36,924 nucleotides of DNA from Burkholderiaceae bacterium (GTDB lineage Bacteria; Pseudomonadota; Gammaproteobacteria; Burkholderiales; Burkholderiaceae_E). The notes below the pieces were generated by a model. The model worked only from the letters and a program-made list of their open reading frames with translations, did not search any database and was not told the DNA's origin. The DNA lies in the NCBI GenBank assembly GCA_024643785.1, contig JAHEMI010000015.1, positions 1-36,924 on the forward strand. The letters are read 5' to 3'. A program made the translations under genes and the position numbers. Position 1 is the stretch's first letter. The number at the start of each line of letters is the position of its first letter. Shown piece after piece: positions 9,340-35,108 of the stretch.

Positions 9340-10878
9340 GTGCGACTGGAACTTCGCGGCATCAGCAAGCACTATCCAGGTGTCGTCGCCAACGACGACG
9401 TAAACCTGCGCCTGCAGCCCGGCGAAATCCACGCCGTGCTCGGCGAGAACGGTGCCGGCAAGTCGACCCTGATGAAGATCATCTACGGTGCGGTGCGTCC
9501 CGATGCCGGCACGATCTTCTGGAATGGCGCTCCGGTCGAAGTCCGCTCCCCGCATGACGCGCGGGCGCTGGGCATCTCGATGGTGTTCCAGAACTTCTCG
9601 CTGTTCGAGACCCTGACGGTCGCCGAGAACGTCTGGCTGGGGCTGGAGAGCACGATTAGCCTGGCGGCAGTCACCGAACGCATCCGGGCGGTCGGCGGGC
9701 AGTATGGACTGGAAATCGACCCTGAGCGTCCGGTCCACACGCTGGCGGTCGGACAGCGCCAGCGGGTCGAGATTGTCAGGGCGCTGCTAACCGACCCGCG
9801 ACTGTTGATTCTCGACGAGCCGACGTCGGTGCTGACGCCGCAGGCCGTCGACCGGCTCTTCGATACCCTGCGCCAGTTGGCCGCGACCGGTTGCAGCATC
9901 CTCTACATCAGCCACAAGCTCGACGAGATTCGCCGCCTCTGCCACAACTGCACGATCCTGCGCGCCGGCCGCGTCACCGGAGAGGTCGACCCCGCGCTCG
10001 AGACCAATGCCAGCCTGTCGCGCCTGATGATCGGCGCCGATCCACCCCGCCTGCGCCACGAGGAAGTCACGCCCGGTGCGGTCGCGATCGAGGTCCGTGG
10101 GCTGAGCCTGCCGCAGCGCGACCGCTTCGGCACGGCGTTGCACGACATCAACCTGGCGGTGCGCAGCGGCGAGATCGTGGGCATCGCGGGCGTGTCCGGG
10201 AACGGCCAGCGCGAACTGCTGGCGGCGCTCTCGGGCGAGGACGTCCATGGTGATGATGCGGCGATCAGGTTGTTCGGCAACCCGATAGGACGACTCGGGC
10301 CGCGCCGCCGGCGCCGGCTCGGGCTGCATTTCGTCCCCGAGGAGCGGCTCGGACGGGGTGCGGTTCCCGGGATGTCGCTGGCGCAGAACGTCCTGCTCAC
10401 CAGGTCGCATGATCGCGGCCGGCGCCGCGCGCTGATTCGCCGCGGCTGGATCGGGCTGGGCGCGGTCGCGGAACTGGCGCGCTCGCTGATCGGCCGCTTC
10501 GCCGTCAAGGCTGATGGTTCGGATGCAGCGGCGATGAGCCTCTCGGGCGGCAACCTGCAGAAATTCATCGTCGGCCGCGAGATCGATGCCGAACCATTGG
10601 CACTGATCGTTTCCCAGCCTACCTGGGGAGTTGACGTCGGCGCCGCCGCTCAGATCCGTGCCGAGTTGCTGGCGTTGCGCGCCGGCGGCTGCGCGGTGCT
10701 GGTGGTGTCGGAGGAACTCGACGAACTCTTCGAGATCAGCGATCGTCTGGTGGTGATCGCCGGCGGGCGGCTGTCGCCATCGATTGCGATTGCCGATGCC
10801 ACGGTCGAGGTCATTGGCCAGTGGATGAGCGGGCTCTGGCCCGGGGCGCAGGTCGCGGGAGAAAGCCATGCGGCTTGA
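9340..10878 (+). CDS. Nucleoside-type ABC transporter, double ATPase subunit
   Basis: Energises a BMP-family (YufNOPQ/Bmp type) importer, probably for nucleosides. It is a tandem ATPase of 512 residues. Domain 1 has Walker A GENGAGKST (G35-T43), the variant signature LAVGQRQR and Walker B LLILDEPTSVLTP. Domain 2 has a degenerate Walker A (GVSGNGQREL, no GKS/T) but a good LSGGNLQK signature and the QPTWGVDVGA segment. This asymmetry is usual for this family and for sugar ATPases such as RbsA. GTG 9340 follows a 53-base gap after the methyltransferase. The 3' end overlaps the first permease by 11 nt. The receptor type (BMP) favours nucleosides over sugars. Confidence 0.92.
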   Translation: MRLELRGISKHYPGVVANDDVNLRLQPGEIHAVLGENGAGKSTLMKIIYGAVRPDAGTIFWNGAPVEVRSPHDARALGISMVFQNFSLFETLTVAENVWLGLESTISLAAVTERIRAVGGQYGLEIDPERPVHTLAVGQRQRVEIVRALLTDPRLLILDEPTSVLTPQAVDRLFDTLRQLAATGCSILYISHKLDEIRRLCHNCTILRAGRVTGEVDPALETNASLSRLMIGADPPRLRHEEVTPGAVAIEVRGLSLPQRDRFGTALHDINLAVRSGEIVGIAGVSGNGQRELLAALSGEDVHGDDAAIRLFGNPIGRLGPRRRRRLGLHFVPEERLGRGAVPGMSLAQNVLLTRSHDRGRRRALIRRGWIGLGAVAELARSLIGRFAVKADGSDAAAMSLSGGNLQKFIVGREIDAEPLALIVSQPTWGVDVGAAAQIRAELLALRAGGCAVLVVSEELDELFEISDRLVVIAGGRLSPSIAIADATVEVIGQWMSGLWPGAQVAGESHAA

Positions 10879-11932
10879 GCCCAGGCCCAGGCTGTCGCGC
10901 CTGATGTCGTTCGCATCGCCGCTGATCGCGCTCGGGCTTACCGTGGTGCTGGGCACCCTGCTGTTCATTGCGCTCGGCAAGGACCCGGTCGCCGGTCTGC
11001 GGGTTTTCTTCTACGAGCCGCTGCGCAATGTCTATTCGCTGACCGAATTGGCGGTCAAGGCGACCCCGCTGATCCTGTGTGCGATCGGGCTATCGGTGTG
11101 CTACCGCTCCAACGTCTGGAACATCGGCGCCGAGGGGCAACTGCTCGCCGGTGCGATTGCCGCCGGTGGCCTGGCGCTCTACCTGACCACGGTCGGGGGG
11201 AGCGATCTTGGGCGCTGGGTGGTGTTGCCGATCCTGCTCTGCGGGGTTCTTGGCGGCATGCTGTGGGCGTCGATCACCGCCGTGTTGCGTGACCGTTTCC
11301 ACGCCAACGAGATCCTGGTCAGCCTGATGCTGGTCTATGTGGCCCAGCTGCTGCTGAGCTACCTGGTGTTCGGTCCCTGGAAGGATCCGCACGGCTACAA
11401 CTTTCCCCAAACTCGGGTGTTCTTGCCCGAAACGCTGCTCCCGGTCCTGATTGCCGGGTCGCGCCTGCACGTCGGGTTCCTGGTGGCGCTGGCGACGGTG
11501 GGCGTGGCCTGGATCTTCATGTTCCGCACGTACGTCGGCTTCCAGCTGCAGGTCGGCGGGATGGCGCCGGATGCGGCCCGTTATGCCGGATTTGCCGCGC
11601 GCCGGGCGCTCTGGATCTCGATGCTCGTTAGCGGGGCCACGGCGGGCCTGGCGGGGGCCATGGAAGTTGCCGGACCGCTGGCGCAGCTTACGCCGCACGT
11701 TTCACCGGGCTATGGGTTTAGCGCGATCATCGTTGCCTTTGTCGGGCGCTTGCACCCGATCGGCTGCGTCTTCGCCGGCTTTCTGCTGTCGATGATGCTG
11801 ATTGGGGGGGAACTGGCGCAGACCCGGTTGGGTTTGCCGAACGCTCTCACCGGCGTCTTCCAGGGCTTGCTGCTGATCACCCTGCTGGGCTGTGACACGC
11901 TGATTCGCTACCGTATTCGTTGGGCTCGATGA
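10868..11932 (+). CDS. Nucleoside-type ABC transporter permease 1
   Basis: Inner-membrane subunit of the BMP-type importer, belonging to the BPD_transp_2 (LivHM-like) family. The 354-residue protein has about eight to ten hydrophobic helices. It carries the family motif YRSNVWNIGAEGQLL (about residues 78-92) and the loop GGMAPDAARYAG that resembles the EAA-type coupling loop. The longer N-terminus and the WNIGAEGQ sequence mark it as the larger of the two permeases (YufP type). It overlaps the ATPase gene by 11 nt and the next permease by 4 nt, so all three are co-translated. Confidence 0.92.
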   Translation: MRLEPRPRLSRLMSFASPLIALGLTVVLGTLLFIALGKDPVAGLRVFFYEPLRNVYSLTELAVKATPLILCAIGLSVCYRSNVWNIGAEGQLLAGAIAAGGLALYLTTVGGSDLGRWVVLPILLCGVLGGMLWASITAVLRDRFHANEILVSLMLVYVAQLLLSYLVFGPWKDPHGYNFPQTRVFLPETLLPVLIAGSRLHVGFLVALATVGVAWIFMFRTYVGFQLQVGGMAPDAARYAGFAARRALWISMLVSGATAGLAGAMEVAGPLAQLTPHVSPGYGFSAIIVAFVGRLHPIGCVFAGFLLSMMLIGGELAQTRLGLPNALTGVFQGLLLITLLGCDTLIRYRIRWAR

Positions 11933-12855
11933 TGACGCTGGAAATCGCGCTGCTCATTGCCGCCACCCTGAACGCCGGTACGCCGCTGGCGCTGGCATCA
12001 CTCGGGCTGCTGGCCAACGAACGCTCGGGGATCCTCAACCTCGGCGCCGAAGGAATGATGCTGATCGCGGCGATCGCGGGATTTGCCGCCGCGCTGCACA
12101 CTGGCAGCGACGCGGCGGCCTTCCTGGCGGCGGCGGGGGCCGGCGCATTGGTGGCGGCGGTGTTCGGCTGGCTCGTGATCTGGCTCAATACCAACCAGTA
12201 CGCTACCGGGCTGGCGCTGAGCTTGTTTGGCGGCGGCTTCTCCGCCTTCGTGGGCCTGGGCTACGTCGGCAAGGCCCTGCCGCCGCGCCCACAGTTCGAG
12301 ATTCCCCTGCTCAGCGATATCCCGCTGCTGGGGCCGGCGCTCTTTCGCCAGCACCCCATGGTCTACCTGGCAATCGCCCTGGCGCTCGGCATGGTCTGGT
12401 TCCTCTATCGCTCGCGCCCCGGCCTGGTGCTGCGCGCGGTCGGCGAGTCTCCGGAGTCGGCGCATGCGCTGGGCTACCCGGTGAGGCGCATCAGGATGGC
12501 AGCGGTAATGGCGGGCGGTGCGCTGTGCGGCCTGGCCGGGGCCTATATCTCGGTGGTCTACACCCCGCTGTGGGTCGAATCGATGACCGGCGGACGCGGC
12601 TGGATCGCACTGGCCCTGACCACCTTCGCCACCTGGCGCCCGCGCCGGGTCCTGCTCGGAGCCTACCTGTTCGGCGGGGTGACGATGTTCCAGTTCTATC
12701 TCCAGGGCATCGGCGTTCAGGTCTCGAGCCAATTGCTCTCGATGCTGCCGTACCTCTGCACGATCGCAGTGCTGGTGCTGATTTCGCGCAATCCGACTTT
12801 CATTCGCGTGAATATGCCGGCTTCTCTCGGAAAACCCTTTTATCCCGGCAGCTGA
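11929..12855 (+). CDS. Nucleoside-type ABC transporter permease 2
   Basis: Second membrane subunit of the same importer (YufQ type), 308 residues from ATG 11929. An in-frame TTG at 11920 and ATG at 11932 are alternative starts; 11929 is chosen because it makes an ATGA overlap with the stop of permease 1. The conserved motif NERSGILNLGAEGMML lies near residues 27-42, matching the WNIGAEGQ site of its partner. The coupling loop is AVGESPESAHALGYPVRRIR. Hydrophobic helices run through the whole protein. The receptor gene follows after 53 bases. Confidence 0.92.
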   Translation: MMTLEIALLIAATLNAGTPLALASLGLLANERSGILNLGAEGMMLIAAIAGFAAALHTGSDAAAFLAAAGAGALVAAVFGWLVIWLNTNQYATGLALSLFGGGFSAFVGLGYVGKALPPRPQFEIPLLSDIPLLGPALFRQHPMVYLAIALALGMVWFLYRSRPGLVLRAVGESPESAHALGYPVRRIRMAAVMAGGALCGLAGAYISVVYTPLWVESMTGGRGWIALALTTFATWRPRRVLLGAYLFGGVTMFQFYLQGIGVQVSSQLLSMLPYLCTIAVLVLISRNPTFIRVNMPASLGKPFYPGS

Positions 12856-17723: not shown

Positions 17724-18863
17724 TCACTTGACGACCATCATCTCCGAGCGCTTGCCGCCCTTGTACGTGTACAGGGTCAGCGCGCCGTCCTTGATGTCGC
17801 CGTTCTTGTCGAACGAGACCTTGCCGGTCACACCGTCGTACGAGATCTTGGCCAGCGCCGGCAGGTACTTGGCCGGATCAGCCGAGCCAGCCTTCTGCAT
17901 TGCCGCGACCATCGTCATCAGAGCGTCGTAGGTGTACGGGGCATAGAGCTGGACATCGATGTTCCAACGGGCCTTGAAGCGCTTCTTGAAGTCGGCCATG
18001 TTGGCGGCCTTGTCCTTGGTCACGCCGCCGGCTTCGGCGCAGATCACCGTGCCTTCGCCAATTGCATCACCAGCCAGTTCGGCCAGCATCGGGGTGCAGA
18101 TTCCGTCGCCGCCCATGAACTTGGCGTTCAGGCCGAGCTGCTTCATCTGGCGCAGCATCGGGCCGGCAACCGCGTCCATGCCGCCGAAGAAGATCAGGTC
18201 AGGCTTGGCGCCCTTGAGCTTGGTGAGAATCGCGTTGAAGTCGGTGGCTTTGTCGGTGGTGAATTCGCGACCGACGACCTTCGCACCGGCAGCCTTGGCG
18301 GCCTTCTCGAATTCGTCTGCAACGCCTTGACCATAGGCAGTACGGTCATCGACCACGGCGATATTCTTGGCCTTCCAGTCCTTGACCGCGTAACGGCCGA
18401 GCGTGCCACCGAGCTGGCCGTCATTGGCCACGACGCGGAACGTGGTCTTGAAGCCTTGCAGGGTGTACTTCGGATTGGTCGCCGAGGGCGAGATCTGCGG
18501 GATGCCAGCATCCATGTAGATCCGTGAGGCGGGGATCGTGGTGCCCGAGTTCAGATGGCCGATCACGCCCTTGACCTTGGCGTCGACCAGTTTCTGGGCG
18601 GCGGCGGTACCTTGCTTCGGATCCGCGGCGTCGTCTTCCGAGAGCAGTTCGAAGGTGACTTCCTTGCCGCCGATCTTGGTCTTCTTGGCGTTGAGTTCTT
18701 CAACGGCAAGCTTGGCGCCCATCTCGTTGTCTTTGCCCAGGTGGCCGATGCTGCCGGTCAGGGGACCAACGTGGCCGATCTTGACGACTTCCTGCGCGAC
18801 TGCTGGTCCGGCGAGAACCGCAAATGCTGCCGAGACTGCGACGCTTATGAGTTTGTACTTCAT
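17724..18863 (-). CDS. LivK-like branched-chain amino acid binding protein (orphan)
   Basis: Periplasmic type-1 binding protein of a Liv/HAAT ABC transporter. The 379-residue protein starts with a signal peptide cleaved after AVA (residue 23). Next comes VKIGHVGPLTGSIGHLGKDNEMGAKL, a textbook LivK opening. It has SGTTIPASRIYMDAGIPQISPSATNP in the ligand region and ends in the FDKNGDIKDGALTLY strand typical of the family. AGGAGA lies 9 bases before ATG 18863. No permease or ATPase gene adjoins it: neighbours are ppsA (convergent) and nfeD (divergent). It must share a transporter encoded elsewhere, or conceivably the Liv genes about 10 kb to the right. The ligand is unproven but Leu/Ile/Val is likely. 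Confidence 0.92.
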   Translation of the reverse strand: MKYKLISVAVSAAFAVLAGPAVAQEVVKIGHVGPLTGSIGHLGKDNEMGAKLAVEELNAKKTKIGGKEVTFELLSEDDAADPKQGTAAAQKLVDAKVKGVIGHLNSGTTIPASRIYMDAGIPQISPSATNPKYTLQGFKTTFRVVANDGQLGGTLGRYAVKDWKAKNIAVVDDRTAYGQGVADEFEKAAKAAGAKVVGREFTTDKATDFNAILTKLKGAKPDLIFFGGMDAVAGPMLRQMKQLGLNAKFMGGDGICTPMLAELAGDAIGEGTVICAEAGGVTKDKAANMADFKKRFKARWNIDVQLYAPYTYDALMTMVAAMQKAGSADPAKYLPALAKISYDGVTGKVSFDKNGDIKDGALTLYTYKGGKRSEMMVVK

Positions 18864-28630: not shown

Positions 28631-29857
28631 ATGCGTCGCAAGTTGCTGCTCACAGCCGCCAGCGCGGTTGGAATCGCTTTGTGCTCATCGGTCTGGGCGC
28701 AGAACATCAAGTTCGCGATTCTCGGTCCGATGGCGTTTGTCCAGGGCGAGAATCATTGGGCCGGAGCCGAGATGGCCCGTGACGAAATCAACAAGGCTGG
28801 CGGCATCACCGTCAACGGGAAGAAGCGCATGGTGGAGATCCTCAAGATCGACACCAACGAGATCCAGAGTGTCCCGGACGCGACCAACGCCATCGAGCGT
28901 GCGATTACCCGCGACAAGGCTGATTTCCTGATCGGCGGATTCCGCTCCGAAGCTGTGCTGGCGATGCAGGAAGTGGCCATGGACAGCAAGAAGCTCTTCA
29001 TGGGCGTGGGCGCGGCGCACTCCAAGCTCGGGATCAACGTCGAAGAGAATTACGACCGCTACAAGTACTGGTTCCGCGCGTCACCGACCAAGGACGTCGA
29101 CCTGGCCAAGACCATCTTCACCGTGCTCGGTTCGGTTGCTGCCCAGCTCCGCGCTGACCTGAAGAAGGAAACGCCAAAGGTCGCCATCGTGGCCGAGAAA
29201 GCGGTCTGGACCGAAGGCCTGATCAAGGCCGCCCAGGCAACCCTGCCGAAGATGAAGATGGAGATCGTTGGCCTGTGGCAGCCGTCAGCGATTGCCACCG
29301 ATGTAACCGCAGAACTTTCAGCCATCAAACGCGCCAATGCCGATATCGTCTTCACGATCATCTCCGGCCCGCTGGGAATCGTGCTCGGACGGCAGATGGG
29401 CGAACTCGAACTGCCGGCAGTAGCATTCGGGATCAACGTCGAGGCGCAGAAGGATGGGTTCTGGCAGGCAACGGCCAGCAAGGGCAATTACGTCGCAACG
29501 CTCGACACGTTCTCGGAAGTCGAGATGACGCCCAAGACCGTCCCCTTCGTGAAGGCCTTCAAGGCCCGCTTCGGGAAAGGCCCGGCCTATACCGCGGCAA
29601 CCTATGACGTGCTCTTCGCGCTCAAGAAGGTAATCGAAGAGGCGAACTCGCTCGATCCCGACAAGCTGGTGCCGCTGCTCGAGGCGCAGGAGATCGTCGG
29701 TGCCGGGTCATACGCCTCTTATGACAAGCGCCATGACCTCAACTGGGCGCCAGGCAAGACCGCCGGGATCGCGGTCCAGTGGCAAGACGGCGAGAAGGTT
29801 CCCTTCTGGCCGCCGACCGTCAAGGGAATGCGTCCGTTCAAGATGCCCAAGATGTAA
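28631..29857 (+). CDS. Liv-type ABC transporter substrate-binding protein
   Basis: Periplasmic type-1 binding protein of 408 residues. The signal peptide is cleaved after VWA (residue 23), then NIKFAILGPMAFVQGENHWAGAEMARDEINKAGGI. The usual LivK GPLTG opening is replaced by GPMAFVQGE, so the ligand is probably not a branched-chain amino acid. It has FLIGGFRSEAVLAMQEVAMD, VAIVAEKAVWTEGLIKAA and a C-terminal YTAATYDVLFALKKVIEEA, all typical of the larger amide/aromatic-acid binding group. A very strong AAGGAGGAG site precedes ATG 28631. livH and livM follow. Together with the acyl-CoA ligase of the convergent operon, an aromatic or other carboxylic acid is a likely ligand; this is inference. 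Confidence 0.9.
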   Translation: MRRKLLLTAASAVGIALCSSVWAQNIKFAILGPMAFVQGENHWAGAEMARDEINKAGGITVNGKKRMVEILKIDTNEIQSVPDATNAIERAITRDKADFLIGGFRSEAVLAMQEVAMDSKKLFMGVGAAHSKLGINVEENYDRYKYWFRASPTKDVDLAKTIFTVLGSVAAQLRADLKKETPKVAIVAEKAVWTEGLIKAAQATLPKMKMEIVGLWQPSAIATDVTAELSAIKRANADIVFTIISGPLGIVLGRQMGELELPAVAFGINVEAQKDGFWQATASKGNYVATLDTFSEVEMTPKTVPFVKAFKARFGKGPAYTAATYDVLFALKKVIEEANSLDPDKLVPLLEAQEIVGAGSYASYDKRHDLNWAPGKTAGIAVQWQDGEKVPFWPPTVKGMRPFKMPKM

Positions 29858-29945: not shown

Positions 29946-30815
29946 ATGATCGCCGACATCTTCGTCAGCGGATTGGTAAATGGCGGCGTCTACGCGCTGT
30001 TGGCTCTTGGTTTCTCGTTGATTTTCGGGGTTGCCCGGATCGTCAACATTGCGCATACGGCGTTCTACATGCTGGCGGCCTATGTGCTTTACGCCCTGCT
30101 CGTGAAGTTCGCGGTGCCGCTGGCGGTGGCAATTCCGCTGTCAGTGGTCAGCGTGGTTGCGCTTTCGATGCTCTGCTACAAGCTGGTGATTGAACCGGTG
30201 CGCCAGCACGAATCGGCGGTGCTGATCGCCACCATTGCTCTGGCGCTGATATTTCAGGAGGGGCTGCTGGTGGGGTTCGGGGGCAGCTTCCTGGGCATCC
30301 CCAGCGCCATGGAAGGAGTGGCCTCGATTTTCGGGGTGCGCGTTTCCTACCAGCGGCTGATGATCCTGGCCGCGGTCGCGCTGACGCTGATCGCGCTCTG
30401 GTACCTGCTGTCCCGCACCAAGCTCGGCCTGGCGATCAGGGTTGCGGCCAACGACCAGGAAATCGCCAACCTGATGGGCATCGACGTTGGCCGGGTCGCC
30501 ATGTACACGGTGGGCATCTCGGTTGCGCTGGCGGCCATCGCCGGCGTCGTGGTGGCACCGGTGTTCGTCGTCGATCCGCTGATGTGGTTGTCGCCCCTGG
30601 TGATCATGCTGGCGATCGTCGTGCTCGGCGGCCTGGGCAGTCTCAAGGGCAGCCTGATCGGTGCCTTCATCATCGGTTACGTTGAGGCAATCACGGTATT
30701 CGCCGTGCCGGCCGGGTCGTATCTCAAAGGTGCGGTAGCCCTGTCGATAATGGTGATCGTGCTGCTGATCCGTCCCGAGGGGTTGTTCGGCGTGGTGTTC
30801 GAGGAAGAGCGATGA
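29946..30815 (+). CDS. livH: Liv-type ABC transporter permease, LivH subunit
   Basis: Inner-membrane permease of 289 residues with about eight hydrophobic helices. Family motifs are the opening SGLVNGGVYALLALGFSLIFGVARIVNIAHTAFYML, the coupling loop RVAANDQEIANLMGIDVGRV, and VLGGLGSLKGSLIGAFIIGYVEA near the C-terminus. ATG 29946 follows 88 bases after the binding-protein stop, with the hairpin between them. GGGTAGGGTGA upstream may act as a weak ribosome site. The 3' end overlaps livM by 4 nt (ATGA, 30812-30815). Symbol used at family level only; the substrate is unproven. Confidence 0.93.
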   Translation: MIADIFVSGLVNGGVYALLALGFSLIFGVARIVNIAHTAFYMLAAYVLYALLVKFAVPLAVAIPLSVVSVVALSMLCYKLVIEPVRQHESAVLIATIALALIFQEGLLVGFGGSFLGIPSAMEGVASIFGVRVSYQRLMILAAVALTLIALWYLLSRTKLGLAIRVAANDQEIANLMGIDVGRVAMYTVGISVALAAIAGVVVAPVFVVDPLMWLSPLVIMLAIVVLGGLGSLKGSLIGAFIIGYVEAITVFAVPAGSYLKGAVALSIMVIVLLIRPEGLFGVVFEEER

Positions 30816-31861
30816 GGACCTTGCTGGCATTGCTGCAGAGGCTGTGGGCGCAATTGCGCCATGAAGTATTCGTGCTGCCAAGCCGCAGCTTCGTGTTGAT
30901 TGGGGCAATCTTCCTGCTGGTTCTCCCGCTGGTATACGGCGACACGTACGTGCTGCGGATTGTCACCATGACCGCGATCTTCGCGATCTTCGCGGCGAGT
31001 TGGGACCTGCTGTCGGGCTTCAGCGGGCAGGTAAATTTCGGCCACGCATTGTTTTTCGGCGTCGGCGCCTATACCTCGGCATTGCTTTCGTACCACTTTG
31101 GGCTGCCGCCCTGGCTTACCATGCCGCTCGGCGCCGTGATGGCAATGGCGAGCGGCGTGCTGGTGGGCATTCCCTGCCTGCGGCTGCGCGGCTCATATCT
31201 CTCGCTCGCGACGCTGGCCTTCCCGCTGATCCTGATCGGGATCCTTTTTGCCTTCCCCGACTTCTCGGGCGGTGAACTGGGAATTTCCGGATTGAAGCGC
31301 GTGGTGATCAGCCCGGTCGGCAACTACTATGTCGCGGTGGTGCTGATGCTGGTGCTGTGCATGACGATGTGGAAGATCGGTACCTCGCGCACCGGACTGA
31401 TCCTCCATGCCATCCGCGAAGACGAGGTGGCGTGCCGCGCCTCGGGCATCAACACGCCGCGCTACAAGCTGATCGCCTTCGCGCTTTCCGGACTGTTCGC
31501 CGGCGTCGCCGGGGCGCTGTTCGCCCACTTCCTGCGGGTAGCGGGTCCGTCATCACTGGAGGTGGCGCTGTCGTTCCAGGCGGTGATCTGGGGGATTTTT
31601 GGCGGCGCAGCGACCATCTATGGTCCGGTGGTCGCAGTGTTCGCGCTCTATCCGCTTACCGAGGTGCTTGCCAACTTCGAGTTGTTCAGGGAAATCCGCA
31701 CCCTGACCTCGGCGGTGATCATCCTGCTGGTGTTGCTGTTCATGCCCCAGGGGCTGGCGCCTTGGCTGCGCGACAAGATCGAGAACGTTTGCCCGCGTTG
31801 CAAGGCACGCAACGTCGTTGGCCGGCACCAGTGCCGGCTCTGCAACGCTGAACTCGACTGA
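30812..31861 (+). CDS. livM: Liv-type ABC transporter permease, LivM subunit with C-terminal zinc-ribbon-like tail
   Basis: Second permease, 349 residues. The membrane domain has the LivM hallmarks SWDLLSGFSGQVNFGHALFFGVGAYTSALL (about 63-92), GIPCLRLRGSYLSLATLAFPLI, and the coupling loop HAIREDEVACRASGINTPRYKLIAFALSG. After the last helix (LFMPQGLAPWLRD) there is an extra cytoplasmic tail with four cysteines, C327, C330, C341 and C344 (CPRC-N10-CRLC spacing), the pattern of a zinc ribbon. Ordinary LivM ends at the PQGL helix. The tail is in frame with no sign of frameshift, and base composition does not change. Start overlaps livH by 4 nt. Function of the tail is unknown; regulation of transport or protein contact is possible. 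Confidence 0.92.
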   Translation: MRTLLALLQRLWAQLRHEVFVLPSRSFVLIGAIFLLVLPLVYGDTYVLRIVTMTAIFAIFAASWDLLSGFSGQVNFGHALFFGVGAYTSALLSYHFGLPPWLTMPLGAVMAMASGVLVGIPCLRLRGSYLSLATLAFPLILIGILFAFPDFSGGELGISGLKRVVISPVGNYYVAVVLMLVLCMTMWKIGTSRTGLILHAIREDEVACRASGINTPRYKLIAFALSGLFAGVAGALFAHFLRVAGPSSLEVALSFQAVIWGIFGGAATIYGPVVAVFALYPLTEVLANFELFREIRTLTSAVIILLVLLFMPQGLAPWLRDKIENVCPRCKARNVVGRHQCRLCNAELD

Positions 31862-31882
31862 GACGCCCCGCCCGGGGCGTCT
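31861..31882. terminator. Hairpin shared by convergent livM and livF
   Basis: Perfect 9-bp stem AGACGCCCC / GGGGCGTCT (31861-31869, 31874-31882) with a 4-base loop. It begins on the last base of livM's stop and reaches the first two bases of livF's stop codon triplet. No T run on either strand, so a role in stopping or protecting both convergent mRNAs is inferred. Confidence 0.55.
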
Positions 31883-32630
31883 ACAGACCCAGGTAACCGG
31901 CCCTCAGGCCCTCGTCAGCCATGAGCTGCGTGGCTGATCCCTCGGCGATGATCTTGCCCTGCGAGAGCACGTAGTTGCGGCTCGCCATTTCGAAGACCTT
32001 GCCGACCTCCTGCTCGACCAGCAGTACCGGAATGCCGCTGGCATGGATCTGGCTGATGGCCGCGAACACCTCGGCGCGCAACATCGGGGCCAGGCCCAGC
32101 GACGGTTCATCGATGCACAACAGGCGTGCCTTGAACATCAGGGCGCGCGCGGTCGCCAGCATCTGCTGCTCGCCACCCGACAGGGTCCCTGAAATCTGCT
32201 TGCTGCGTTCCTTGAGCCGCGGAAACAGCTGGTAGCAGCGATCGAGATTCGCGAGTTGCTCGCCACGGCTGGTTTCCAGATAGGCCCCGGCCATCAGGTT
32301 CTCGAACACGGTCAGTTCGCGAAATGGCCGGCGCCGTTCGGGACAGAGCACCAGGCCCAGTTCCCTGACCTTGTGCGCCGAAAGCCCGTCGATGAATTCG
32401 CCATTGAAGCGGATCGAACCCTCGACGACGATGTCGCCGGTAGCGCCCCGCTTGGTCTGCGCCTCCCAGCGAACCAGGCCCGATATGGCGCGCAGCATGG
32501 TCGACTTGCCGGCGCCGTTGGGGCCGACCAGGCCGACCAGCTCATGATCGTCGACGCTCAGCGTGACATCGTTGAGCAGTTGCGCCTTGTCGTAGCGTAC
32601 CGAGAGATCCGAGACTTCAAGCAGCGGCAT
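31881..32630 (-). CDS. livF: Liv-type ABC transporter ATPase, LivF subunit
   Basis: ATP-binding subunit of 249 residues. Walker A is GPNGAGKST (G36-T44), the signature is LSGGEQQ (about 149-155), and Walker B is LLCIDEPSLGLAP. The LivF-type LSAHKVRELGLVLCPERRRPFRELTVFENL segment lies between them. The region EAQTKRGATGDIVVEGSI after Walker A is somewhat longer than in E. coli LivF. It overlaps livG by 14 nt at its 5' end, so the two ATPases are co-translated. Its stop lies within the convergent hairpin after livM, only 19 bases beyond the livM stop. The partner permeases are therefore on the opposite strand. Confidence 0.93.
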   Translation of the reverse strand: MPLLEVSDLSVRYDKAQLLNDVTLSVDDHELVGLVGPNGAGKSTMLRAISGLVRWEAQTKRGATGDIVVEGSIRFNGEFIDGLSAHKVRELGLVLCPERRRPFRELTVFENLMAGAYLETSRGEQLANLDRCYQLFPRLKERSKQISGTLSGGEQQMLATARALMFKARLLCIDEPSLGLAPMLRAEVFAAISQIHASGIPVLLVEQEVGKVFEMASRNYVLSQGKIIAEGSATQLMADEGLRAGYLGL

Positions 32631-33390
32631 GGTCGGCTCCCAGGTAGGCTTCGATGACCTTCGGGTCCTTGACCACTTCTCCCGGTGGGCCGTCGGCGAT
32701 CTTCTCGCCGTGATCGATGACGATCACCCGATCGACGATCGACATGAGCTCCTTCAACTTGTGCTCGATCATCAGCACGGCCGGTCCTTCCGAGTGCAGG
32801 CGCCCGAAGCGTCCGCCCTGATGCAGGCGCTGGATCGACTTGGCCAGCAGTCCGGACTCGGCCGGACTCATGCCGCCGAGCGGTTCGTCGAGCAACAGCA
32901 GTTCCGGCTCCGAGGCAATCGCCCGAGCCACTTCCAGGCGCTTGAGGTCGCCTTGCGACAGGGCCGAGGCGCGCTCCAGCGCTTGATCGGAGATGCCCAC
33001 GAACTCGAGCGCGTCCATTGCCTTGGCCTCGATGCGTTTGACCCACTCGCCCCGATGGCGGGCGCGCGGACTCAGGCAGGGAACCATGACGTTAGCGATT
33101 ATCGGCAGGTGCCGGAACGGACGGGTGTTCTGGAACGTGCCCGCGATCCCGCGATTGGCGACATCCCAGGGCTTGAGCCCGGAGATGTCCTCGCCGTTGA
33201 AAATTATCCGCCCGGCATCGGGCTTGAGGATGCGCGTGATCAGGCGCAACAGGGTCGTCTTGCCGGCGCCGTTGGGCCCGATGATGCCGACGATCTCGTC
33301 GCGCTGCACTTCGAAGGAAACGTCGTTGACGGCGACCAGGCCGCCAAAGCGCTTGGTGAGATGCTCGACCTTGAAGAATGGCGTGCTCAT
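32617..33390 (-). CDS. livG: Liv-type ABC transporter ATPase, LivG subunit (variant signature)
   Basis: Second ATP-binding subunit, 257 residues. Walker A is GPNGAGKTT (G38-T46). The LivG-type GIAGTFQNTRPFRHLPIIANVMV segment follows. The ABC signature reads LSQGDLKRLEVARA in place of LSGGQ or LPYGQQ, and Walker B is LLLLDEPLGGMSPAE. An extra stretch of about 10 residues (HQGGRFGRLHSEG) precedes the AVLMIEHKLKELM H-loop region compared with common LivG. It lies 2 bases after the acyl-CoA ligase stop and overlaps livF by 14 nt, so ligase and both ATPases form one leftward operon. The variant signature is seen in some aromatic-acid type Liv systems, which agrees with the ligase. Confidence 0.92.
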   Translation of the reverse strand: MSTPFFKVEHLTKRFGGLVAVNDVSFEVQRDEIVGIIGPNGAGKTTLLRLITRILKPDAGRIIFNGEDISGLKPWDVANRGIAGTFQNTRPFRHLPIIANVMVPCLSPRARHRGEWVKRIEAKAMDALEFVGISDQALERASALSQGDLKRLEVARAIASEPELLLLDEPLGGMSPAESGLLAKSIQRLHQGGRFGRLHSEGPAVLMIEHKLKELMSIVDRVIVIDHGEKIADGPPGEVVKDPKVIEAYLGADHAAA

Positions 33391-33392
33391 GA

Positions 33393-35108
33393 TCAGGCCG
33401 AACGCTCGTCGTGTTGCTCGCGCAGCTCACGGCGCGACACCTTGCCGACATCGGTCTTGGGCAATTCGCCGCGGAACTCGATGATTTGGGGCACCTTGTA
33501 TCCGGCCAGCTGGGCCCGGCAGTACTCCATGATGTCCTCTTCGGAGAGCTTGCCGCGCGCTTCCGGCTGCAACACTACGATAGCCTTGATCCGTTGTCCG
33601 ACCGCGGGGTCGGGAACCCCGATTACTCCGGCCCCCTTGATCATCTCGTGTTCGTAGAGCACGTCCTCGATATCCTTGGCGAACACTGAGTGGCCCTTGT
33701 ACTTGATGAGGTCCTTGGAGCGGTCGTGGAAGTGGAAATAGCCTTCGTCGTCCATGTGCACGATGTCGCCCGTGCGCATCCAGCGTTCGCCGTCGATGTC
33801 CATGAATACCTTGGCCGATTCCTCAGGGGCATTCCAGTAGCCCGCCATGATGTTCGGACCATTGAGGATCAGCTCGCCGGATTCGCCGGGAGCGACGAAC
33901 TCGGAAGTCTCCGGATCGATCACTGCGGCCATGACGTTGGGCACCGGCACCCCGAACGAACCGCTCTTGGGACGGTTCAACGGATTGACGTGGGCGGCAG
34001 CGCAGGTCTCGGTCATGCCATAGCCCTCGGTGATCGAAGACCCGGTGCGCTGCGTCCACTCCTTGGTTGTCGACTCGTGCAGGGTATCGGCGCCCGAGAC
34101 CAGCAACTTGAGACGCCGCCAGTTGACCTTGCCGGTGTCCTTGTGGTCCTTGAGGTACTCGTAGAGGGTTGGCACGCCATAGAAGATGCTTGCCTTGTAG
34201 CGCTCCATCGCTTCGAGAATGCTCTCGGTGTCGGGCGTGGTGAAGAGCACCAGCGTCGCGCCCTGCATCAGTCCGCCGAGCATGATCACCACCTGGCCGT
34301 AGATGTGGAACAACGGCAGGAACGCGATTGCCACCTCCTTGCCCGGCTCCAGCCGCGTGAACCCGACTTCGCCCGCGACCTGCGCCGAAATCAGGTTGTG
34401 GTGGGTGAGCATCACGCCTTTGGGATTGCCCGTGGTACCACCCGTATAGGGCAGGGCGGCCAGGTCGGTCATCGGGTCGATGGTGACCGCGGGGAGTTCG
34501 CCCTTGGGGGTCGCCGCGAGATCGCGGAAATCGTGCACGTTGGCGCGCGCCGGCACCGACGGCGCCGGGACGTTGAGTTCGGTGAAGATCTTGCCGAGGA
34601 ACGAGCGCCCGATCATGCGCCGCAATGGCGGCAGGTAGTCACCGATGTTGGTGACCACGACGTGGTCGAGCTGGGCGCCGGACTTCTCGACCTTGTCGAA
34701 CAGGATGTCCTGGCAGATCACGATCCTGGCGCCACTGTTGGCAAGCTGGAACTTGACCTCGTGGCTGGTATAGACCGGGCTGACCGGAGTTGGCGTGGCA
34801 CCGAGCTTGAGGACCGCAAAATAGGCAATGATGAACTGCGGGCTGTTGAGCAGGTACAGTGCGACCCGATCGGCCTTCTTGACGCCCAGTTTGGCCAGGC
34901 CCAGCGCGAAGCGGTCGGTCTCTTCGCGCAGGGTGCGATAGGAAATTTCCCGTCCGTGAAAGACCAGCGCGACCTGCGTCGCGTAACGCTCGGTTGCTTC
35001 GTCGAAAGCTTGCGGCACCGAGCGCAACGGTATCTCCGGATTGGCTGGCACGCCCTCCTCGTAGAATGCAAGCCATGGCCGGGACAGGTACGCGGACTTG
35101 TTATCCAT
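33393..35108 (-). CDS. Acyl-CoA ligase (long-chain fatty acid/aromatic acid type)
   Basis: AMP-forming ligase of 571 residues that activates a carboxylic acid to its CoA thioester. Core motifs are the AMP-binding P-loop YTGGTTGNPK (221-230), the GYGMTE motif (about 363-368), the hinge region MRTGDIVHMDDEGYFHFHDRSKDLIKYKG, and the catalytic lysine K556 in PKTDVGKVSRRE. Length and the N-terminal domain fit the FadD-like group, but ligand cannot be read from sequence. GAGGAG lies 4 bases before ATG 35108. It is the first gene of the leftward operon with livG and livF, linking uptake to activation (vectorial acylation is an inference). Confidence 0.92.
   Translation of the reverse strand: MDNKSAYLSRPWLAFYEEGVPANPEIPLRSVPQAFDEATERYATQVALVFHGREISYRTLREETDRFALGLAKLGVKKADRVALYLLNSPQFIIAYFAVLKLGATPTPVSPVYTSHEVKFQLANSGARIVICQDILFDKVEKSGAQLDHVVVTNIGDYLPPLRRMIGRSFLGKIFTELNVPAPSVPARANVHDFRDLAATPKGELPAVTIDPMTDLAALPYTGGTTGNPKGVMLTHHNLISAQVAGEVGFTRLEPGKEVAIAFLPLFHIYGQVVIMLGGLMQGATLVLFTTPDTESILEAMERYKASIFYGVPTLYEYLKDHKDTGKVNWRRLKLLVSGADTLHESTTKEWTQRTGSSITEGYGMTETCAAAHVNPLNRPKSGSFGVPVPNVMAAVIDPETSEFVAPGESGELILNGPNIMAGYWNAPEESAKVFMDIDGERWMRTGDIVHMDDEGYFHFHDRSKDLIKYKGHSVFAKDIEDVLYEHEMIKGAGVIGVPDPAVGQRIKAIVVLQPEARGKLSEEDIMEYCRAQLAGYKVPQIIEFRGELPKTDVGKVSRRELREQHDERSA

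Follow-up and report, generated by a model that had tools for sequence, protein, structure and literature searches.

Organization of the Importer Locus

The window, i.e., the whole analyzed stretch of 36,924 bp, contained a set of six genes, with those encoding a substrate-binding protein, LivH, and LivM on the forward strand and those encoding LivF, LivG, and an acyl-CoA ligase on the reverse strand. The substrate-binding protein (28631–29857, + strand; 408 aa) matched PF13458 with 111.3 bits, and the second permease subunit, LivH (29946–30815, + strand; 289 aa), matched PF02653 with 133.8 bits (cut-off 26.8). The livM gene (30812–31861, + strand), which began with ATG and overlapped livH by 4 bases, encoded a HAAT-type permease subunit of 349 aa that was assigned to the LivM-type permeases according to its PF02653 score (152.8 bits, gathering cut-off 26.8). 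The ATPase subunits were encoded by livF (31881–32630, − strand; 249 aa; PF00005, 87.1 bits), which was convergent with livM, and by livG (32617–33390, − strand; 257 aa; PF00005 and PF12399, 109.7 and 46.4 bits, respectively). Two permeases, two ATPases, and a type I binding protein (PF02653, PF00005, and PF13458) were found together, which is the composition of a HAAT-type importer. The last gene of the set (33393–35108, − strand; 571 aa) encoded an AMP-forming, FadD-like acyl-CoA ligase with scores above the cut-offs of both PF00501 (319.6 bits) and PF13193 (63.9 bits); none of the FadD subfamily or equivalog cut-offs was reached, the best being PRK08314 with 470.1 of 705 bits.

The importer of the window had the same five transporter subunits and the same permease fold family (PF02653) as the LivFGHM/LivK branched-chain amino acid HAAT importers, but differed from them in the tail of LivM, the inserts in LivG and LivF, and the linked acyl-CoA ligase. 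It should be noted that LivM, LivF, and LivG all scored below the equivalog cut-offs of the PRK11301 (LivM), LivF, and LivG models, with 136.2 bits for LivM against the E. coli-type model NF008450/PRK11301 (curated value of 366). Where livM and livF converge, a strong hairpin was predicted (31861–31882; z = −3.85); it overlapped both stop regions and is a possible shared terminator, with no T-run and no entry in the terminator scan. A further ORF of the window (17724–18863, − strand), which presumably encodes a second HAAT-type substrate-binding protein, had no adjoining permease genes in the ORF list.

The Four-Cysteine Tail of LivM

According to the translated ORF, the C-terminus of LivM was VCPRCKARNVVGRHQCRLCNAELD. 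The tail, CPRCKARNVVGRHQCRLCNAELD (residues 327–349; 31790–31858, + strand; stop codon at 31859–31861), was located at the very end of the protein, 15 residues past the last predicted membrane stretch (295–311). Its cysteines C327, C330, C341, and C344 were arranged as CxxC-x10-CxxC, with codon 327 beginning at 31790; the length of 23 residues and the cysteine numbering given in the preliminary description proved correct when checked against the ORF. The description had also recognized a zinc-ribbon-type spacing, and the two close CxxC knuckles, with cysteines kept in all 28 tail loci collected, bear this out.

The same C-x2-C-x10-C-x2-C spacing occurs in the DZR (PF12773), DZR_2 (PF18912), RanBP2-type (PF00641), and eL40 ribbons, to which the profile matches were weak, the best zinc-ribbon E-values (3.9 × 10−5 to 1.2 × 10−4) being obtained in single relatives. 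The LivM tail differs from these ribbons in being carried by a membrane permease and in reaching no curated cut-off of the zinc-ribbon Pfam models (DZR, DZR_2, Zn_ribbon_3, and RanBP types); the DZR score of the window tail was 17.0 bits (cut-off 27.3), and the best of seven tails had 23.8 bits against 27. AlphaFold2 models were of low confidence both for whole LivM (three sequences, pLDDT 41) and for its last 60 residues, in which the tail had a pLDDT of 50–58 and no strands. A search of solved structures by sequence returned no relative of LivM. Positive charge was most abundant on the membrane face that bears the tail, the final 38 residues of LivM including 7 K/R, and the loop 191–219, which is expected to meet the ATPases, was on the same face. 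By the positive-inside rule, the tail is therefore probably cytoplasmic, in agreement with the preliminary description. It is most likely a structural cytoplasmic zinc ribbon and one component of an interface that co-evolved in an acid importer working together with its ligase.

The sensing of metal or redox state that had been proposed for the tail was matched by no supporting feature, and the proposed gating of transport likewise found no support. A related explanation is that the tail is a trans-inhibition sensor, which would bind acyl-CoA/CoA or a metal, or respond to redox, and thereby halt import. A cytoplasmic four-cysteine site could react in this manner, and the zinc ribbons of the DUF35 family (PF01796) are tied to acyl-CoA binding: according to PMC2954200, such a ribbon takes part in acyl-CoA metabolism, and its authors speculate that it contacts the nucleotide part of acyl-CoA. 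One relative's tail gave a weak match to zf-ChsH2 (17.9 bits, cut-off 23.2). However, DUF35 proteins are soluble partners of thiolase-type enzymes with an OB fold that is missing from the tail; a CxxC-x10-CxxC arrangement with unchanged cysteines looks structural, and neither extra ligands nor a binding site were found in the tail. A sensory role is accordingly considered quite unlikely.

Distribution and Conservation of the Tail

The collected loci comprised the window and 27 others, belonging to 26 genomes of one bacterial order and two Thermus thermophilus plasmids. All four cysteines were unchanged in the 28 loci, which ranged from Burkholderiales-type genomes to Thermus and had LivM identities of 49–100%. 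Within the genus, the tail was found in two of the three other genomes (G001 and G003; LivM identity 91–92%, same neighbours), and the third (G002) had no LivM match above 35% identity. In the family of the window, 13 of the 74 genomes matched at an E-value of 0.1 and 4 had a real tail; in the order sample, 12 of 399 matched and 5 had real tails. Two further families had the tail in 20 of 98 genomes (family of G173) and 2 of 64 genomes (family of G154). Among 72,556 plasmid records, four contained the tail, all from Thermus thermophilus (54.5% identity over 95% of LivM). Beyond the order, no tail was found within the phylum in the samples searched: seven of the 369 genomes of the class sample matched, and the six inspected besides that of the window had no tailed LivM; in the phylum sample, the full-length profile matched 11 of 398 genomes, with the tail in the window's genome only among the best candidates scored (up to five per genome), and the LivG insert peptide matched 1 of 299 genomes, namely, that of the window. 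A 3.8 kb contig in a genome of another family (L131; G1189:C596) was 94% identical to the window's cassette; it may be stray or mis-binned and adds little to the count.

In the alignment of 23 full-length sequences, the residues C327, P328, R329, C330, K331, R333, C341, R342, C344, and L348 were invariant. Five of the 28 loci were left out of this alignment, namely, G112, three truncated sequences, and one of the two near-identical Thermus sequences. In G112 (L078), livM and the ligase gene were each split between frames, with intact neighbours and an intact tail piece carrying L and V at positions 328 and 333. Across 24 sequences, the cysteine codons alternated between TGC and TGT.

Comparison of 96 distinct LivM-like C-terminal ends from the loci gathered revealed 25 with the four-cysteine tail and 71 without it, in line with the statement of the preliminary description that an ordinary LivM ends at the last helix. 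Tailed ends had an identity of at least 48.9% to the window LivM, and tail-less ends of at most 44.9%. Chance cysteines were ruled out, since none of the 71 tail-less ends had two or more cysteines in its last 70 residues, and a frameshift or assembly artefact was ruled out as the origin of the tail, which independent genomes keep. The preliminary description had named absence of the tail, unconserved cysteines, and a frameshift as counting against it; all three were looked at, and none refuted the tail.

Origin of the Tail and Selection

Phylogenetic analysis of LivM sequences from which the tails had been cut off grouped the 24 tail-bearing sequences, out of 48 rows, into one clade (support 100/98), and its nearest sisters under midpoint rooting were four tail-less proteins of haloarchaeal plasmids (95/89). 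When the full-length profile was applied to the family of G173, 17 matches at 608–668 bits and three truncated matches came exclusively from the 20 tail genomes; the next complete LivM below this group scored 262 bits and had no tail. Since the clade remains one group without its tails and is set apart by this gap in profile scores, the tail arose once and has been kept by the clade.

In the genus trio, the tail had 0.39–0.49 synonymous and 0.02–0.06 non-synonymous differences per site, similar to the rest of LivM (0.40–0.49 and 0.04–0.05, respectively). In more distant pairs, the pooled non-synonymous value was higher for the tail (0.23) than for the body (0.18), suggesting that the constraint acts on the cysteines and a few further residues and not on the whole tail. 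The rapid divergence of the residues between the cysteines in some groups, together with the single origin, would suit a tail that does little and merely marks the lineage as the cassette is passed on. Against this, the cysteines remained constant across phyla while their codons and the neighbouring residues changed, and no loss of the tail was found in the 20 tail-bearing genomes of the 98 or among the other clade members found; a mere marker is thus the least probable of the explanations considered and very unlikely.

Inserts in the ATPase Subunits LivG and LivF

LivG contained an insert of 8–9 residues within the sequence GGRFGRLHSEG (residues 192–202; 32785–32817, − strand), in the loop just before the strand leading to the H-loop. 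According to the alignment, this insert was present in all 27 tail loci with livG and in none of the 20 tail-less control loci; its motif was GGRFGRLHxEG, with HAEG in place of HSEG in one tail locus. When the 98 genomes of the family of G173 were searched with a peptide containing this insert, the 20 that matched were precisely those with the tail. The insert in LivF, of approximately 13 residues (about residues 57–69; 32424–32462, − strand), followed the Walker A helix, often read KRGTxGDIVxEG, and was similarly found by alignment in each of the 27 tail loci that had livF, compared with 0 of 20 tail-less controls. The closest solved chains, 1g6h for LivG and 1ji0 for LivF, each lack the respective insert. 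These two inserts travelling with the tail are previously unreported and were overlooked in the preliminary description, and GGRFGRLHxEG provides a second marker by which such importers can be recognized in annotated genomes. In view of the single origin of the tail, its co-occurrence with the inserts represents one evolutionary event followed by inheritance or transfer and not many independent ones.

Linkage with the Acyl-CoA Ligase

A FadD-like ligase was found in 25 of the 28 tail loci, and in the remaining three (L137, L140, and L146) the contig ended before reaching it; every stretch that was complete would thus fit a tail that requires the ligase. The ligases of the cassettes were 43–94% identical to that of the window, compared with at most 34% for the other AMP-forming ligases of the compared loci. 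Gene order varied between groups, yet the set stayed together: the ligase gene directly followed livM in Thermus and G112, was located beyond livF–livG in most other loci, and in G154 (L074 and L147) was found, together with livG and livF, approximately 13 kb from livM.

Ligases also occurred near importers without the tail. An AMP-forming ligase was present on the stretch in 1 of the 20 tail-less control loci (L188) and was annotated nearby in all four haloarchaeal plasmid loci (L207, L208, L209, and L210). These haloarchaeal importers, the nearest sister group, are located near AMP-forming ligases or acyl-CoA dehydrogenases and differ from the window importer in having no tail and neither the LivG nor the LivF insert, and their ligases were just 26–34% identical to that of the window. 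A nearby ligase consequently does not require the tail. The co-occurrence of tail and linked ligase, which the preliminary description had suggested looking for, is supported in the tail loci collected, but the tail-less importers near ligases speak against a simple rule linking the two.

In another explanation, the tail and both inserts would hold only the transporter together, the ribbon packing on LivG/LivF and setting the ATPase pair, with the ligase as a mere operon neighbour. The inserts lie in both ATPases, with which LivM is directly associated, and accompanied the tail without exception in the loci compared; this, like the ligases beside tail-less importers, would fit a purely internal role. 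However, nothing in the present data places the tail close to either insert, and the ligase remained part of the set even where gene order changed. Such an internal role is regarded as rather unlikely, and docking of the ligase is favoured over it by a small margin; recruitment of the ligase is likewise the favoured one among the functional ideas of the preliminary description.

Putative Function of the Importer–Ligase Set

We favour a reading in which the tail and the LivG and LivF inserts form a surface that keeps the ligase where cargo leaves the importer, an acid thereby being activated on entry; we assign this reading a probability of about 0.4. The tail would act as a small zinc ribbon of structural type on the cytoplasmic end of LivM; together with the two inserts, it would build a cytoplasmic surface peculiar to a single clade of HAAT-type importers, whose genes travel with their own acyl-CoA ligase. 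This surface would dock the ligase at the importer exit, and the imported carboxylic acid may be converted into its CoA ester during entry, i.e., by vectorial acylation. Zinc binding, the cytoplasmic side, the contacts between tail, inserts, and ligase, the acid substrate, and the coupling itself are all putative elements of this scheme.

Vectorial acylation has been inferred for FadD. The peroxisomal ABCD transporter Comatose has an exporter-type fold unrelated to that of HAAT importers. According to PMC6642094, acyl-CoA synthetases associate with Comatose on the far side of the membrane, which its authors describe as completing a vectorial acylation mechanism. Comatose differs from the window importer in taking acyl-CoA, in having its own thioesterase, and in having no zinc ribbon. 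It is conceivable, though somewhat doubtful, that the set described here is a transport-and-activation machine, in which a clade of ABC importers acquired the zinc-ribbon tail on one permease and the inserts in both ATPases for carrying its own ligase at the exit. Such a machine would be a counterpart of vectorial acylation driven by an ABC importer, and its genes would have spread between phyla together, reaching Thermus plasmids among others. None of the open-licence PubMed Central titles and abstracts searched described such a zinc-ribbon tail of LivM. What is new is an importer variant with a LivM tail, two ATPase inserts, and a ligase, confined to one clade and found in two phyla, for which the above function is suggested.

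Direct hand-over of cargo from an ABC importer to an activating enzyme is hard to test, and most importers show no visible link of this kind; the three co-occurring additions, namely, the LivM tail and the inserts in LivG and LivF, indicate a potential site for it. The gene set is small enough to be expressed, and the cysteines offer a simple mutation for testing the link between importer and ligase. Some cassettes contained additional ORFs. In L130 (G1187), ORFs that presumably encode a hydrolase-like (10199–10996, + strand) and a thioesterase-like protein (11204–12028, + strand) were located between livM and livF, which may point to esters or acyl compounds as substrates. ORFs that we take to be EAL-domain-like were located between livG and the ligase gene in some cassettes (L132: 11134–11928, + strand; L141: 1340–2128, − strand).
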